Assembly: GCF_004143485.2 (NCBI RefSeq)
Contig: NZ_ML974132.1
Coordinates: 1-64,000, forward strand
Reading direction: 5' to 3'
Origin: Halorussus amylolyticus
Lineage (GTDB): Archaea; Halobacteriota; Halobacteria; Halobacteriales; Haladaptataceae
Length of the DNA: 64,000 nt
Below, in pieces: positions 19,719-28,013 of the stretch. A program made the translations under genes and the position numbers. The notes under the pieces were generated by a model. It was not told the origin of the DNA and did not search any database. It saw only the letters and a program-made list of their open reading frames with translations. Numbering within the stretch: the first letter of the stretch is position 1; each line of letters opens with the position of its first letter.

Positions 19719-20807
19719 TTAGCCGACGAGGTACTCCCACGTCTGCGGACCGACGACGCCATCGGCCGTGATGGCGCTCGCGCTCTGGAACGACTCGACC
19801 GCGCTCTGGGTTCCGGACCCGAAGACGCCGTCCACCGAGACGTCGTAGCCGTGCTTGTACCGGAGACTGTCCTGGGCCGCGCGGACGGCCTGATTCTCGT
19901 CGCCGCTGCTCGCGGTGACGACGAGTTCGTCCCACGTGTTCGGCCCGACGACGCCGTCGACGGCGAGACCGCTGTCCGACTGGAGGCTCTCGACGTTGGT
20001 CTCGACCTCGGTGCCGTAGATACCGTCGTGGTACTCTATCGGGTAGCCGTTGGCTTCGAGGAGGTACTGGACCGCGTACACGTCGCGGTTCTCGTCGCCG
20101 TTCGAGTACGTCGGCCATCCGGCGGAACCGCCGTCACCGCCGTCGCCACCGTCTCCACCGTCGCCGTCGTCCACTTCGCCGTCCACGAGGTCCATGAAGT
20201 AGTTCCAGTCGAACGTGTCGCCGGGGTCGACCTTCCCGTCGGTGACGCCCGTGCAGTCTTCGTTCGGAATCTGGTTGTGTCCGATGATACCGCCCTGCCC
20301 GTCGTAGGGGTCACACGGCGCGAGGTCGAACGTCGGGTGGCGCTTGGGCACGTCGTACTTGTCGCAGATGTGTGCGACCGCTTCGGCGGTCTGCTCGTAG
20401 ATGTTGTCGTTGAAATCGGTGGAGTTGGCGTAGCCTTCGAGTTCGAAGTTGACGCCCGTGTCGTTGTACGACCCGTCGCCGCCGTTGGTCCACGCGATGT
20501 CCTCGATATCGACCATCTGCATGATTTGGCCGGGTTCGTTGCCGATGACGAAGTGGGAACTCACGTTCGCGTCGGGGTTCTCGAACCAACTGTAGCCCGC
20601 CTCGTAGGAGCCTTCGATGGTGTGCATGACTATCCATCGAACGTCCGACGACGACCGATTCGCGTCGGTGTAGTTGCTCGGGTCGGCCGACCGGTACACG
20701 TCGGTGACGCTCTCCTGTGCGGTCGCGGTCGATGCACTGGTGAGGACGGCGCTCGTGGTGATAGCGCCGCCAGCTAGCTTGACGAAGTTTCGTCTGGATT
20801 TCTCCAT
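19719..20807 (-). CDS. Tat-secreted N-acetylmuramoyl-L-alanine amidase with two peptidoglycan-binding domains
   Basis: 362 residues. A Tat signal (SRRNFVKLAGGAITTSAVL, cleavage near residue 30) precedes an Amidase_2 domain at about 40-210. Candidate zinc ligands and catalytic residues of the AmpD type are present: His62 in VMHT, Glu in FELEG (122/124), His177 in IIGHN, and Lys192-x-Asp194 in KVDPG. A Gly/Asp linker (213-230) leads to two PG_binding_1 domains (about 238-295 and 303-362), each with a DGxxG turn and a WxxL end. It should cut the amide between MurNAc and the peptide stem of bacterial peptidoglycan, outside the cell. Haloarchaea have no peptidoglycan, so the target is presumably bacteria. 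An AT-rich TATA region lies at 20831-20840. The ATG at 20807 is chosen because it gives a proper Tat signal. Confidence 0.9.
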   Translation of the reverse strand: MEKSRRNFVKLAGGAITTSAVLTSASTATAQESVTDVYRSADPSNYTDANRSSSDVRWIVMHTIEGSYEAGYSWFENPDANVSSHFVIGNEPGQIMQMVDIEDIAWTNGGDGSYNDTGVNFELEGYANSTDFNDNIYEQTAEAVAHICDKYDVPKRHPTFDLAPCDPYDGQGGIIGHNQIPNEDCTGVTDGKVDPGDTFDWNYFMDLVDGEVDDGDGGDGGDGGDGGSAGWPTYSNGDENRDVYAVQYLLEANGYPIEYHDGIYGTEVETNVESLQSDSGLAVDGVVGPNTWDELVVTASSGDENQAVRAAQDSLRYKHGYDVSVDGVFGSGTQSAVESFQSASAITADGVVGPQTWEYLVG

Positions 20808-20911
20808 ACATTTATTATCCACGTCTAAGTTAAAAATTTTTGGTCTAGCGGACAAAGATTCCTCTACTCGACATCTGAACCGGGGCGAAACGAAAAACTG
20901 TTGACTCTACT

Positions 20912-21979
20912 TCAGTCGGCCGCGACCGGCGTTCGACAGTCCACCATGTCGAGCACGTCGTCGAAGAAGCCGAGGGTGTCGTTCGGGCCGGGGTTCGCCT
21001 CGGGGTGATACTGGCGGGTCAAGACTCGGAGGTCGTCGCTCTCCAGACCTTCCGGGGTGTCGTCGTTGACGTTGACCTGCGTGACTTCGAGGTCGCCGGG
21101 GTCGGCGACCGTGTAGCCGTGGTTCTGCGTCGTCATCACGACCTTCTCCGAGCGGAGGTCCCGAACCGGCTGATTCACACCCCGGTGGCCGAAGTCCATC
21201 TTCGCGGTCGAGCCGCCGAGCGCTCGCGCGATGATTTGCTGGCCGAGACAGATGCCCGCGAGCGGCACCTCGCCGACGAACTCCGAGACCAGCGACTCGG
21301 CGGCCTCGAAGTTCGCGGGGTCGCCCGGGCCGTTCGAGATGAACAGCACGTCCGGGGCGAGGTCGGAGACCTCGCCCGGACTCACGTCGTAGGGCAGAAC
21401 GTGGACGGTCGCGCCGCGTTCGACCAGCGACTTCACGATGCTCTCTTTTGCGCCGCAGTCCACCAGCGCGACCTCCGTGTCGGCGTCGCCGTCGCCGGGG
21501 TAGGTCTTCTGAGCCGACACGCTGACCTGCGCGCCGATGTCCGTGTAGTCGCTCATCCCCGGACACTCCGCGAGCGCGGCCTTCGCGTCCTCGGGCGAGG
21601 CGTCGGGTCCGGCCGAGACGCCGCACTTCATCGCACCGCCCTCTCGGATTTCGCCGACGAGGTCGCGGGTGTCGAGGCGGTCCACCGCGGGAACGCCCTC
21701 CTCGGTCAGCCACTCGGCCACGTCGTCGGTGAGTTCGCGCGCGACGACCGCGCGCGGGTGGACGCGGCCGCTCTCGAATCGCTCGCTTCGGACGCCGTAG
21801 TTCCCGATGAGGGGGTACGAGAACGTTAGCACCTGCTCCTCGTAGGAGGGGTCGGTGAGACTCTCTTCGTATCCCGTGTACGCGGTCGTGAACACTAGTT
21901 CCCCGTGGGACGTGCCCGGAGCGCGACAGCGCGCCGCCACCACACTGCCACCTTCGAGCGCGACGTATGCGTCCGACAT
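20912..21979 (-). CDS. carA: Carbamoyl-phosphate synthase small (glutaminase) subunit
   Basis: 355 residues. The C-terminal class I glutamine amidotransferase domain shows the nucleophile in GICLGQQII and the catalytic His-x-Glu in RQYHPEAN. The N-terminal CPSase small domain has AYTGYEESLTDPSY and GEIREGGAMKCG. It supplies ammonia from glutamine to CarB for arginine and pyrimidine synthesis. carB is not in the window. I start at the second ATG (21979, MSDAYVALEGG), as in homologues; an in-frame ATG at 21991 is also possible. It is divergent from an Lrp regulator with a palindrome between. Confidence 0.95.
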   Translation of the reverse strand: MSDAYVALEGGSVVAARCRAPGTSHGELVFTTAYTGYEESLTDPSYEEQVLTFSYPLIGNYGVRSERFESGRVHPRAVVARELTDDVAEWLTEEGVPAVDRLDTRDLVGEIREGGAMKCGVSAGPDASPEDAKAALAECPGMSDYTDIGAQVSVSAQKTYPGDGDADTEVALVDCGAKESIVKSLVERGATVHVLPYDVSPGEVSDLAPDVLFISNGPGDPANFEAAESLVSEFVGEVPLAGICLGQQIIARALGGSTAKMDFGHRGVNQPVRDLRSEKVVMTTQNHGYTVADPGDLEVTQVNVNDDTPEGLESDDLRVLTRQYHPEANPGPNDTLGFFDDVLDMVDCRTPVAAD

Positions 21980-22030
21980 TACGAGATTCATACGAAATAC
22001 CGCCTCATAAACCTTGCTTTCGTAGTTAGA

Positions 22031-22682: not shown

Positions 22683-24863
22683 GTGATGCGCCGACCGGCG
22701 GTCGGTGATTCCGTGTCGGGAGACCACCCTCGGGCGGTGAACCGCCGGACCGTCCTCGGAGCTATCGCCGGTACCGGAGTCGCGTCGCTCGCGGGGTGTG
22801 GCGCTCTCGAAACCGGCGAGGACAGCGAGACGACCGAACTCGACGACGAAACAGCGCACGACCTGGCGGTGGCGTTCGCGCCGGCGCTGTACTTCGACGA
22901 AGAAGAGCGGTGGTTCCCGACCGACCCGCGACCCTACGAGAGCGATGCGGACGGCGAGACGGTCGTCGATGGGTTCGACGCGCTCGACGGGTACACCGAA
23001 CTGTACGAGAGCGCCGAGGCTCCCCCGAACCCGACGGTGTTCTATCACGCGGTCCAGTACGAGAACTCGCCGCTGGCCGTCGTCCAGTACTGGTGCTACT
23101 CGGCGTTCGACCAGTTCACGACGAACTTCCACTGGCACGACTGGGAGGTCCTTCACGTGTTCGTAGACACGGCGGGCGGAGATTCCTCGGACGGTTCGGC
23201 GGGGTCCGAAACTATCGCGGTGGGAGACCCCCAACTCTACGTCGCCAGTTCCCACTCCCGGAAGGTGCCCAACAACGAGTTCCTCGACCCGGACCGCGAG
23301 ATGGTCCCGCGCATCCTCTCGGAACTCGGTTCCCATTCGAGCGCGCTGTCGCTCAACGAGGAACGAGACGCCTTCCAGCGACTTCCGATTGGCGACACGC
23401 TGGCCGACATCACCAACAGCGCCATGGAGGCCGTCGAGGACCTCGCCGAGATTCCGATTGCGTACGGTCTTCCCCGCGACGAGGGGTCGCGATTACCCTT
23501 CGTCGTCCCGGAACTCGACGGCGCACCGCTTTACGACCACGAGCGACTCCCGTCGGTCGAACGTTCGAGTCTTATCGACGACGACCTGACCGTCCGGTCG
23601 CTCGACGCGCTCTCCTCGCCGCCGACCGACCTGCCGGAGCGCGAGACCGGACTGGTGTTCCAGCACGCCCGGCGGGACGAGTCGGAGCCGGACGTGGAGT
23701 ACGAGCTGGTCCCCGCGGGCGAACTCGAACACATCGCCGACTTCACCGGTCCGCAACTCAGCTTCGAGTTCGCGGTTCCCGACTTCGTCGAGAACGCCGT
23801 CGCGGGCCACATCACGACGACGGGAGCGCCGTGGGACCAACCGCGTTACGACAATCCCGCGGCCGACATCTCCGACCCGAACCACCGCGAGGCGCTGGCC
23901 AACCGCTACGACGCCGTCGGGGAGGCCGCACCGATAAACCGCGTCTTCGCGACCGTCACAGAAGCGGTTACGTCCGACGACGCCCCCGAAGACGAGGGGC
24001 TGACGACCGAAGCGTCGACGGTCGAGGCGGTCGCCATGCTGGAGAGCGAACCGGAAGCGGTCCCGACCTTCGGCGGCGTCGCGGTCGTCCACGACGTTCC
24101 GGAGGGAGACCACCGACTGACGGTCAATGGCGCTGGGGCCGCCCCGCACAGCGAGACCGTGTCGGTCGCGGGGGACGACTCCGTCACTGCGGCGGGCGTC
24201 GGCGGAGAGATACCGCTCGTGGCCCGGGAAAACGCGACGAGGCTCGAAGTCGACCCTCGCGAAACCGACCGCGACCTCAGCGACCTCGCCGTCGAGGACG
24301 ACTTCGCGGGACGGCTGTACGACGCGCCGCTAACGGGCCCCGACGCCGTCTACGTCCACCGGGGCGGCGCGTACACGACCGAAGTGAGAGATACCGACGA
24401 CGAAGTGGGCGCGTTTCGCGTCAATCCGGGCGACGAGGCGGCGGTCAGAATCGACGAACCCCGGACGGGAACGGCCTCGCTCGCGACGTTTCTGGCGGAC
24501 GTCGCCGAGGAGACGCGGGCCGAAGTCGCCGCTGTGGCCGACGACGATGATGGCAACGACGATGAGGACGGTGACGACGACGACCGACGAGGTGGCGGGT
24601 CCGAAAACGCCGTGCGCGGACTCACGCGGGCGCTGGCCGCCGTCGGCGACGCCGCTCGACGGGCCGCCGAGCGCGCCGAGTCAGACGACCGGGGCGGGGC
24701 GAACAAGCAACTCGAAACCGTCGAAACCCGACTCGAACACGTCGCGAACAGACTCGACGAGGCCCGCGAGGACCTTCCGGGCGGATTGTCCCGGGCGACC
24801 GACCGCCGACTCGCTCAGGCGCGCCGTCGCTCCGAGCAGGCGCGCAACGCCCGAAAACTCTGA
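22683..24863 (+). CDS. Large Tat lipoprotein with a VPS62-like domain
   Basis: 726 residues from a GTG at 22683; an equally likely start is the GTG at 22737, which places NRRTVLGAIAGTG close to the N-terminus. The twin arginines and lipobox SLAGC predict Tat export and lipid anchoring. The region about 60-370 (FAPALYFDEEERWFPTDP, VVQYWCYSAFDQF, HWHDWEVLHVF) resembles the VPS62 family. A long acidic region and a C-terminal helical segment follow. An unusually long acidic linker (DDDDGNDDEDGDDDDRR) is at about 618-638. The function is unknown; export to the cell surface is the firm part. Confidence 0.7.
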   Translation: MMRRPAVGDSVSGDHPRAVNRRTVLGAIAGTGVASLAGCGALETGEDSETTELDDETAHDLAVAFAPALYFDEEERWFPTDPRPYESDADGETVVDGFDALDGYTELYESAEAPPNPTVFYHAVQYENSPLAVVQYWCYSAFDQFTTNFHWHDWEVLHVFVDTAGGDSSDGSAGSETIAVGDPQLYVASSHSRKVPNNEFLDPDREMVPRILSELGSHSSALSLNEERDAFQRLPIGDTLADITNSAMEAVEDLAEIPIAYGLPRDEGSRLPFVVPELDGAPLYDHERLPSVERSSLIDDDLTVRSLDALSSPPTDLPERETGLVFQHARRDESEPDVEYELVPAGELEHIADFTGPQLSFEFAVPDFVENAVAGHITTTGAPWDQPRYDNPAADISDPNHREALANRYDAVGEAAPINRVFATVTEAVTSDDAPEDEGLTTEASTVEAVAMLESEPEAVPTFGGVAVVHDVPEGDHRLTVNGAGAAPHSETVSVAGDDSVTAAGVGGEIPLVARENATRLEVDPRETDRDLSDLAVEDDFAGRLYDAPLTGPDAVYVHRGGAYTTEVRDTDDEVGAFRVNPGDEAAVRIDEPRTGTASLATFLADVAEETRAEVAAVADDDDGNDDEDGDDDDRRGGGSENAVRGLTRALAAVGDAARRAAERAESDDRGGANKQLETVETRLEHVANRLDEAREDLPGGLSRATDRRLAQARRRSEQARNARKL

Positions 24864-26795: not shown

Positions 26796-28013
26796 CTATG
26801 CCTCAACCGAGGCAGGGGGTATGTACTCCCCACTCACGTTCAACGTCCCGCGATTCAAGCGCACATCTACGGGTGCGCCTCCGTCGTCTGCGTTTTGCCG
26901 ACGACGGAGATACCGATAGCCGATGTTCTTGGAAGCGTTGTAGTCGGCGTGGTTCTCATACCCGCACTGCTGACACTCGAACGACTCCCCGTTACGGTTA
27001 TCGTCGTGGGTAAACCCACACGTCGAGCAACGCTTCGACGTGTTACGCGGGTCAACCTGCACAGCTTCGATGCCGTGTTCTTCGGCCTTGTATTCGACGT
27101 ACTCGTAGAGGCGTCGGAACGCCCAGACATGTTGCCACGTCGCCTCGGGGATGTTTTCCCGAATGTGGGTCAAGTCCTCAAACGCGATGTGCGAACAGTC
27201 GTTCTCGACGGCCTCCTCGATAAGTTCGTTCGCCACCGTGTGCAGGTGTATCTCGAACCGCCCGTCCTCTTTCTGTGCGACTGACTCGATGTTTTCGTGG
27301 GCGTGGCGAGACCCACACTGTTGAAGCGAGCCACGACGCTTCTCGTACTCTCGTCGCCAATGGTTGAACTCGTCTGCCGACCAGAATTGCCCTGTTGAAG
27401 CGACCGCGAGGTTGTTGACCCCCAAATCCACACCAAGGACTGTTCTGTGCTTGGAATTGGATTCGGACGATTCCTCATCTGCTTCCATTTTTCGCATTGA
27501 GGCGTGGAGATACCAATCACCGTCGCGGTACTGCAAGTGCGCCATCCGAAACTCGAAGTCCTCGTCGGAGACGTACTTCGTCGGCGGTGTCTCCGAGTCG
27601 TCGGGGAGGATGTAGTCGCACTCGACGCGCCCGTCTACGGTCGAAAGAGAAACGTGGTCGCGGTGGAACGTCGCGCTTCGCTTGTCGTAGACCGCGCTAT
27701 CGGCAGAAAAGTGCGGTCGTGACGTGTTCTCACCACGTTCGAGACGCGAGACTCCGCTTTTGATGGCTTCGACCGCCCTGCGAATCCCTTTTTGGACGAG
27801 ATTCGCGGTGAGGTCGGTTTCGTCGCGGAGTCGGTCGTAGAGGGCGCGTTCGGCTTTGGCTTTCGAGGTGACGTGGTAGCCGTCGTCGCCGTGCCAGCAC
27901 CATTCGCCTGCGGTGTTGGCGCAGTGTTTGAACTGCTCGACAGTCTCTCGAAGCGAATCATCGGCTCCTTCGGAAGTGTCGAGTTTGATGACGGCAGTAC
28001 GACGGTATTCCAT
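26796..28013 (-). CDS. tnpB: TnpB RNA-guided endonuclease (IS1341-type)
   Basis: 405 residues, full length for haloarchaeal TnpB. RuvC catalytic residues are intact: Asp196 (LGVDLGVNN), Glu279 (IAFEDL) and Asp357 (NHADYNASKN). The zinc finger has Cys329, Cys332, Cys347 and Cys350 (CSTCG, CQQCG). TnpB proteins are ancestors of Cas12 and cut DNA guided by an RNA from the element's right end, which helps the element persist. The intact active site suggests a functional nuclease. Its 3' end is followed by the candidate guide RNA scaffold. Confidence 0.95.
   Translation of the reverse strand: MEYRRTAVIKLDTSEGADDSLRETVEQFKHCANTAGEWCWHGDDGYHVTSKAKAERALYDRLRDETDLTANLVQKGIRRAVEAIKSGVSRLERGENTSRPHFSADSAVYDKRSATFHRDHVSLSTVDGRVECDYILPDDSETPPTKYVSDEDFEFRMAHLQYRDGDWYLHASMRKMEADEESSESNSKHRTVLGVDLGVNNLAVASTGQFWSADEFNHWRREYEKRRGSLQQCGSRHAHENIESVAQKEDGRFEIHLHTVANELIEEAVENDCSHIAFEDLTHIRENIPEATWQHVWAFRRLYEYVEYKAEEHGIEAVQVDPRNTSKRCSTCGFTHDDNRNGESFECQQCGYENHADYNASKNIGYRYLRRRQNADDGGAPVDVRLNRGTLNVSGEYIPPASVEA

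Follow-up and report, generated by a model that had tools for sequence, protein, structure and literature searches.

The window, a stretch of 64,000 nucleotides at the start of contig NZ_ML974132.1 of Halorussus amylolyticus, carries on its minus strand an intact ORF with its ATG at 20807 and its stop at 19719. The encoded protein of 362 aa combines a putative export signal, a catalytic domain and two wall-binding domains. The features of the locus, in window coordinates, are:

19719..20807, minus strand: whole gene, 362 aa (Tat-type signal, Amidase_2, Gly/Asp linker and two PG_binding_1 domains)
19731..19895, minus strand: PG_binding_1, second copy (Pfam)
19923..20087, minus strand: PG_binding_1, first copy (Pfam)
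20124..20177, minus strand: flexible Gly/Asp-rich linker, about residues 211-228 (sequence, low pLDDT)
20220..20648, minus strand: Amidase_2 catalytic domain, residues 54-196, with predicted zinc ligands H62, H177 and D194, predicted catalytic E122, and K192 (Pfam, alignment, predicted fold like AmpD)
20715..20807, minus strand: putative Tat-type signal peptide, residues 1-31, SRRNFVKLAGG...STATA (sequence; R5-R6 invariant in relatives)
20829..20841, minus strand: AT-rich promoter-like element AAAAATTTTTAAC, about 22-34 bases 5' of the ATG (conserved in five orthologues; putative promoter role)
20912..21991, minus strand: carA, the conserved upstream neighbor by which the locus is recognized in two genera (synteny)

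A chance ORF is excluded by dN/dS values of 0.12-0.25 among orthologues of the gene, indicative of purifying selection, as well as by synteny and Pfam scores. The N-terminus presents a twin-arginine motif (SRRNFVKLAGG) with an AxA-type end, and the mature protein has a marked excess of acidic residues (61 D+E versus 11 K+R). The Tat signal previously assigned in a sequence-only reading of this DNA is upheld by the motif and its conservation in relatives, but not by the general Tat model TIGR01409, on which the protein scores below the cut-off (12.6 versus 16.7 bits). The AT-rich element is the best conserved stretch of the region 5' of the gene in the five orthologues compared, which suggests a promoter belonging to the gene itself.

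Catalytic domain

Residues 54-196 match the Pfam family PF01510, Amidase_2, with an E value of 3e-22 (79.6 bits versus a gathering cut-off of 26). The AmpD-type residues pointed out in the sequence-only reading (H62, E122/E124, H177, K192 and D194) are all present. An alignment of 79 Amidase_2 domains from haloarchaea and bacteria shows no variation at H62, E122 or H177, and only Asp or Cys at position 194; position 192 varies (K/H/T/R) and E124 is not conserved. Given the invariance of E122 and the variability at E124, the predicted catalytic glutamate is E122, not E124.

An AlphaFold2 model built on an 18-row alignment was confident over the amidase domain (pLDDT mostly 85-94) and poorly resolved at the C-terminus, the predicted structure of the binding pair being of low confidence. 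The modeled amidase matches AmpD (2y2b) with a VIA-align Z of 19.0 and an rmsd of 2.2 over 153 residues; further matches include AmpDh2 (Z 17.6), E. coli AmiD (Z 17.0) and phage and autolysin amidases. The likeness to AmpD, AmpDh2 and AmiD in both fold (Z 16-19) and active-site residues supports the prediction that the protein is an AmpD-type zinc amidase. AmpD itself, however, is a cytoplasmic recycling enzyme that lacks the PG_binding_1 pair, whereas the window protein has a putative export signal and a host without murein, and it scores 43.2 bits on the cytoplasmic AmpD equivalog NF008758, under the cut-off of 143.

In the plasmid and phage records searched, the closest bacterial match to the amidase domain is a Nonomuraea (actinobacterial) amidase, about 37% identical, and the closest to the binding pair are those of Streptomyces and Deinococcus, about 51% identical. 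These actinobacterial and Deinococcus wall hydrolases come from murein-bearing bacteria, unlike the window protein, since haloarchaea have no murein. No PBP transpeptidase was found in the window's genome, which therefore shows no sign of a murein of its own.

A wall-binding handle common to archaeal murein hydrolases

Two peptidoglycan-binding domains had also been proposed, and Pfam confirms them as two copies of PG_binding_1 (97.7 bits). Residues 219-361, which comprise the handle only, match NCBIfam models NF052335 (204 bits) and NF052336 (176 bits), which describe archaeal peptidoglycan hydrolases of the glucosaminidase and M23 types, respectively. Neither score reaches the equivalog cut-off of 500, since the window protein has a different catalytic part, an Amidase_2 domain. 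Proteins of another genome (G398) pass the two models, with 633 bits for the glucosaminidase type and 559 bits for the M23 type; the window handle is 57-59% identical to both over 133 residues, and their domain content is that of Danwoldo and Woldo.

Woldo (J2ZZK6) and Danwoldo (J2ZJU5), both from Halogranum salarium B-1, were shown in 2025 to be lethal to Halalkalibacterium halodurans when Haloferax volcanii secretes them (PMC12352652). Three archaeal murein hydrolases have already been reported as bacteria-killing. The sequence-only reading had referred to such reports, and the window protein belongs with enzymes of that kind. All share an N-terminal catalytic domain and a C-terminal PG_binding_1 pair, and Tat-type secretion is predicted for the window protein as well; they differ in that Woldo carries an M23 blade and Danwoldo a glucosaminidase blade, while the Amidase_2 blade of the window protein would be expected to cut MurNAc-L-Ala. 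The window protein can be described as the Woldo/Danwoldo design fitted with an amidase blade, the handle being common and the blades different, and may already appear in the supplementary tables of PMC12352652.

A tree of the binding pair places almost all of the haloarchaeal copies in a single pool, where amidase, glucosaminidase, M23 and DUF900 partners are intermixed; a constraint grouping the bacterial copies together was not rejected (p 0.61). This mixed pool fits the proposal, put forward tentatively in PMC12352652, that the handle was acquired once and its catalytic domains were then replaced. The eight proteins that combine amidase and handle do not form one clade in the amidase tree (AU p 0.0016), and the clade of the window protein is separate from that of G180 and G183 (AU p 0.002), in which the third ligand is Cys, indicating at least two fusions of amidase domain and handle within the haloarchaea. 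Of three candidate independent fusions, two are backed by the separation just described; for the third, in G375, separation is not significant (p 0.094).

Distribution of Amidase_2 proteins in haloarchaea

Amidase_2 domains occur in 50 of the 391 haloarchaeal genomes sampled, and strong PG_binding_1 matches in about 14 of the 391. A survey that requires a binding domain overlooks the short amidases, 21 of which, without any added domain, were recovered. Short Amidase_2 proteins with a Tat-type start are found in Halorussus, Haladaptatus and Halocatena, where they are annotated as 'peptidoglycan recognition family protein'. They share the catalytic family and signal type of the window protein, but lack the binding domain and occupy a separate branch of the amidase tree; some of them lie inside the AnmK/NamZ island described below. 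One such protein, of 200 aa, is also encoded in the window's genome.

Other architectures couple Amidase_2 to SH3_3, or to SH3_3 and a glucosaminidase, or follow the order DUF900-SH3_3-Amidase_2, and the handle likewise occurs with glucosaminidase, M23 and DUF900. In G204 (L053 / L058, L106) the DUF900 alpha/beta-hydrolase is fused both to SH3_3-Amidase_2 and to a PG_binding_1 pair, and may be a further catalytic partner. Two genomes (G002 and G004) each encode an amidase, a glucosaminidase and an M23 protein on the window-type handle; no glucosaminidase was detected in the window's own genome.

The presence of Amidase_2 in so many murein-less organisms makes recruitment to a substrate other than bacterial murein conceivable, be it an archaeal glycoprotein, chitin-associated material or another amide. 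Such a substrate is nevertheless improbable: the AmpD catalytic set and both murein-binding domains are kept under purifying selection, the nearest folds are murein amidases, and relatives place two other kinds of murein hydrolase domain on the same handle.

Conservation and age of the carA locus

In five genomes belonging to two genera, the window gene immediately follows carA, whose other flank is occupied by an Lrp gene. These five are among 27 carA-bearing genomes, 19 of which have no amidase after carA; one Haladaptatus has an amidase one gene further away, and two Halorussus (G012 and G024) have at this site an Amidase_2 of another clade. The latter two were discarded as orthologues of the window gene on account of their clade, yet a single clade is not rejected (AU p 0.073). 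The slot after carA in G012, G024 and G001 (L121, L127, L141) contains other-clade Amidase_2 domains with other C-terminal parts, pointing either to reuse of the locus or to a very old divergence.

Between the genera, the amidase is 77-81% identical and carA 77-79%, with dS values of 0.55-0.74 and 0.65-0.73, respectively. Linkage to carA in two genera, carA-like divergence and purifying selection together argue that the gene is old and not a transient plasmid weapon. Such a pattern fits a gene present in the ancestor of both genera and frequently lost, rather than one recently moved on plasmids.

Distantly related endolysins exist in bacterial phages, and the gene might be taken for a prophage endolysin or for contaminating bacterial DNA in the assembly. 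Either origin is extremely unlikely and was ruled out, given that the carA and Lrp-type neighbors are syntenic across five genomes, the window's and those of four further members of its haloarchaeal family, and that 80% coverage of the protein is not reached by any phage record, the best long matches being 25-27% identical. The halophile-type acidity of the protein also argues against it, and the conserved neighborhood indicates that the contig is archaeal.

Two other ORFs of the window deserve mention. One (22683-24863, plus strand), flanked by the Lrp gene and a PHP-type gene and also found in G022, encodes a 726-aa protein that begins with a Tat/lipobox-like sequence (TGVASLAGCGA) and has highly acidic stretches towards its C-terminus. 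The other (26796-28013, minus strand), not far from the window gene, is a 405-aa ORF that by eye resembles an IS605/IS200-type TnpB-like protein with a zinc-ribbon end.

A putative murein-sugar catabolic island

AnmK (anhydro-MurNAc kinase) and NamZ (exo-N-acetylmuramidase) process the murein sugars anhydro-MurNAc and MurNAc. Both are encoded in the window's genome, AnmK on contig C5 (335 bits; 450 bits versus a cut-off of 387 with NCBIfam) and NamZ about 16 kb away. AnmK is present in 15 of the 391 haloarchaeal genomes and NamZ in 16, including all 15 with AnmK. The conserved surroundings of AnmK comprise, in a composition that varies by genome, an Opp-type transporter, NamZ, a NagZ-like GH3, a serine hydrolase, and creatininase-like, SDR, GNAT and IclR genes, to which the annotated Halorussus aquaticus plasmid island adds GH18, PIG-L and enolase-superfamily genes. 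The island loci are:

G000:C5:180500-199500 (L249): island of the window's own genome
NZ_CP100402 240500-268000 (L300): island on the Halorussus aquaticus plasmid
L253-L266: further island loci

Tat-type Amidase_2 genes lie 1.0-1.5 kb from AnmK in four genomes (G011, G016, G027 and G099). Amidase_2 occurs in 10 of the 15 AnmK genomes versus 40 of the 376 others (Fisher p 9e-7), an association that holds by genus (p 0.0025) and after removal of the window's family (p 0.0019), kinship and genome size being only partly corrected in these tests. NamZ and NagZ have no signal peptides while the amidase, GH18 and binding protein have Tat-type starts, a distribution that points to cutting outside the cell, import and breakdown inside. 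Judged from its gene content, this is apparently a murein-sugar catabolic island in murein-less archaea. An archaeal AnmK-NamZ island of this kind, or a murein-feeding pathway, is not described in the literature searched; GH171, to which NamZ belongs, appears a single time there, in a list of genes of chitin-using Natrarchaeobius.

No MurQ etherase above cut-off was found in the window's genome, only sub-threshold fragments in longer ORFs. A protein of about 392 aa (L300:8039-9214, minus strand, 391 aa; L262:14460-15638, minus strand), which matches neither Pfam nor NCBIfam models at the thresholds applied, is encoded in 12 of the 15 islands and is a possible candidate for a missing step, such as a MurNAc-6-P etherase. 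AnmK looks split in G008 (G008:C3:76316-77451) and truncated in G005 (G005:C5:310619-310957), which suggests that in some relatives the island has recently been decaying.

Killing and feeding

What the sequence-only reading said of the protein is borne out: it is a secreted-type amidase with an intact AmpD-type site and wall-binding domains, and its host lacks a PBP transpeptidase. The antibacterial weapon proposed there is plausible, but the sequence does not separate killing from feeding, and feeding on bacterial walls is at least as well supported. A pure antibacterial weapon, by which living competitors would be killed with nutrient release as an incidental effect, as in one reading of Woldo/Danwoldo, has in its favor the handle shared with demonstrated killers and the three blades of G002 and G004, which on one handle type would cut three different bonds. 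Also, G022 retains an orthologue of the window gene although AnmK and NamZ are both missing there; the gene is thus independent of the island, and killing is still a live reading. The conserved carA locus and carA-like divergence are nonetheless unlike those of a fast-turnover plasmid weapon and murein-sugar catabolism genes are present in the same genome, making a pure weapon rather unlikely.

Scavenging, in which the murein of dead bacteria would be digested to feed the Opp-type transporter and NamZ/NagZ/AnmK, is a serious though tentative possibility. It draws on the constant company of NamZ and AnmK, on the transporter, NagZ-like GH3, serine hydrolase and enolase-superfamily genes of the island, and on the Amidase_2 genes close to AnmK with their significant co-occurrence. 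Against it stand the position of the window gene outside the island, to which it is not physically linked, the gene content of G022, the lack of an above-threshold MurQ, and the GH18 and PIG-L genes of some islands, which are also compatible with chitin use. AnmK and NamZ in the same genome and the class-wide co-occurrence of Amidase_2 with the island favor the bacterial wall as food.

We infer the secretion, cleaved bond, target and purpose of the window protein to be as follows. The folded protein would be exported by the Tat system into high salt, where the two PG_binding_1 domains would dock on murein exposed in bacteria or bacterial debris. Zinc held by H62, H177 and D194, with E122 as general base, would then allow the MurNAc-L-Ala bond to be cut, weakening the wall and setting stem peptides free. 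The protein is thus probably a secreted zinc-dependent N-acetylmuramoyl-L-alanine amidase directed against bacterial murein, the likely gain being bacterial lysis plus peptides and amino sugars, beyond competition alone. For some haloarchaea, the window's host included, a life spent partly on bacterial walls is a nearly evenly balanced prospect: secreted amidases, with or without handles, would open the murein, the Opp-type system would import the products, and NamZ, NagZ-like GH3 and AnmK would degrade the sugars.

New here are the joining of amidase and handle on at least two occasions, the old carA-linked locus, and the concentration of Amidase_2 in carriers of the AnmK-NamZ-NagZ-Opp island. 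The data back the idea, tentative in PMC12352652, of one handle repeatedly combined with different catalytic domains. Whether archaeal murein hydrolases serve killing, feeding or both is a question left by that paper, and the window gene and its genome make it testable: one strain combines secreted amidases with AnmK and NamZ elsewhere in its genome, and the carA-linked locus, with carriers and empty sites in two genera, offers a natural comparison.
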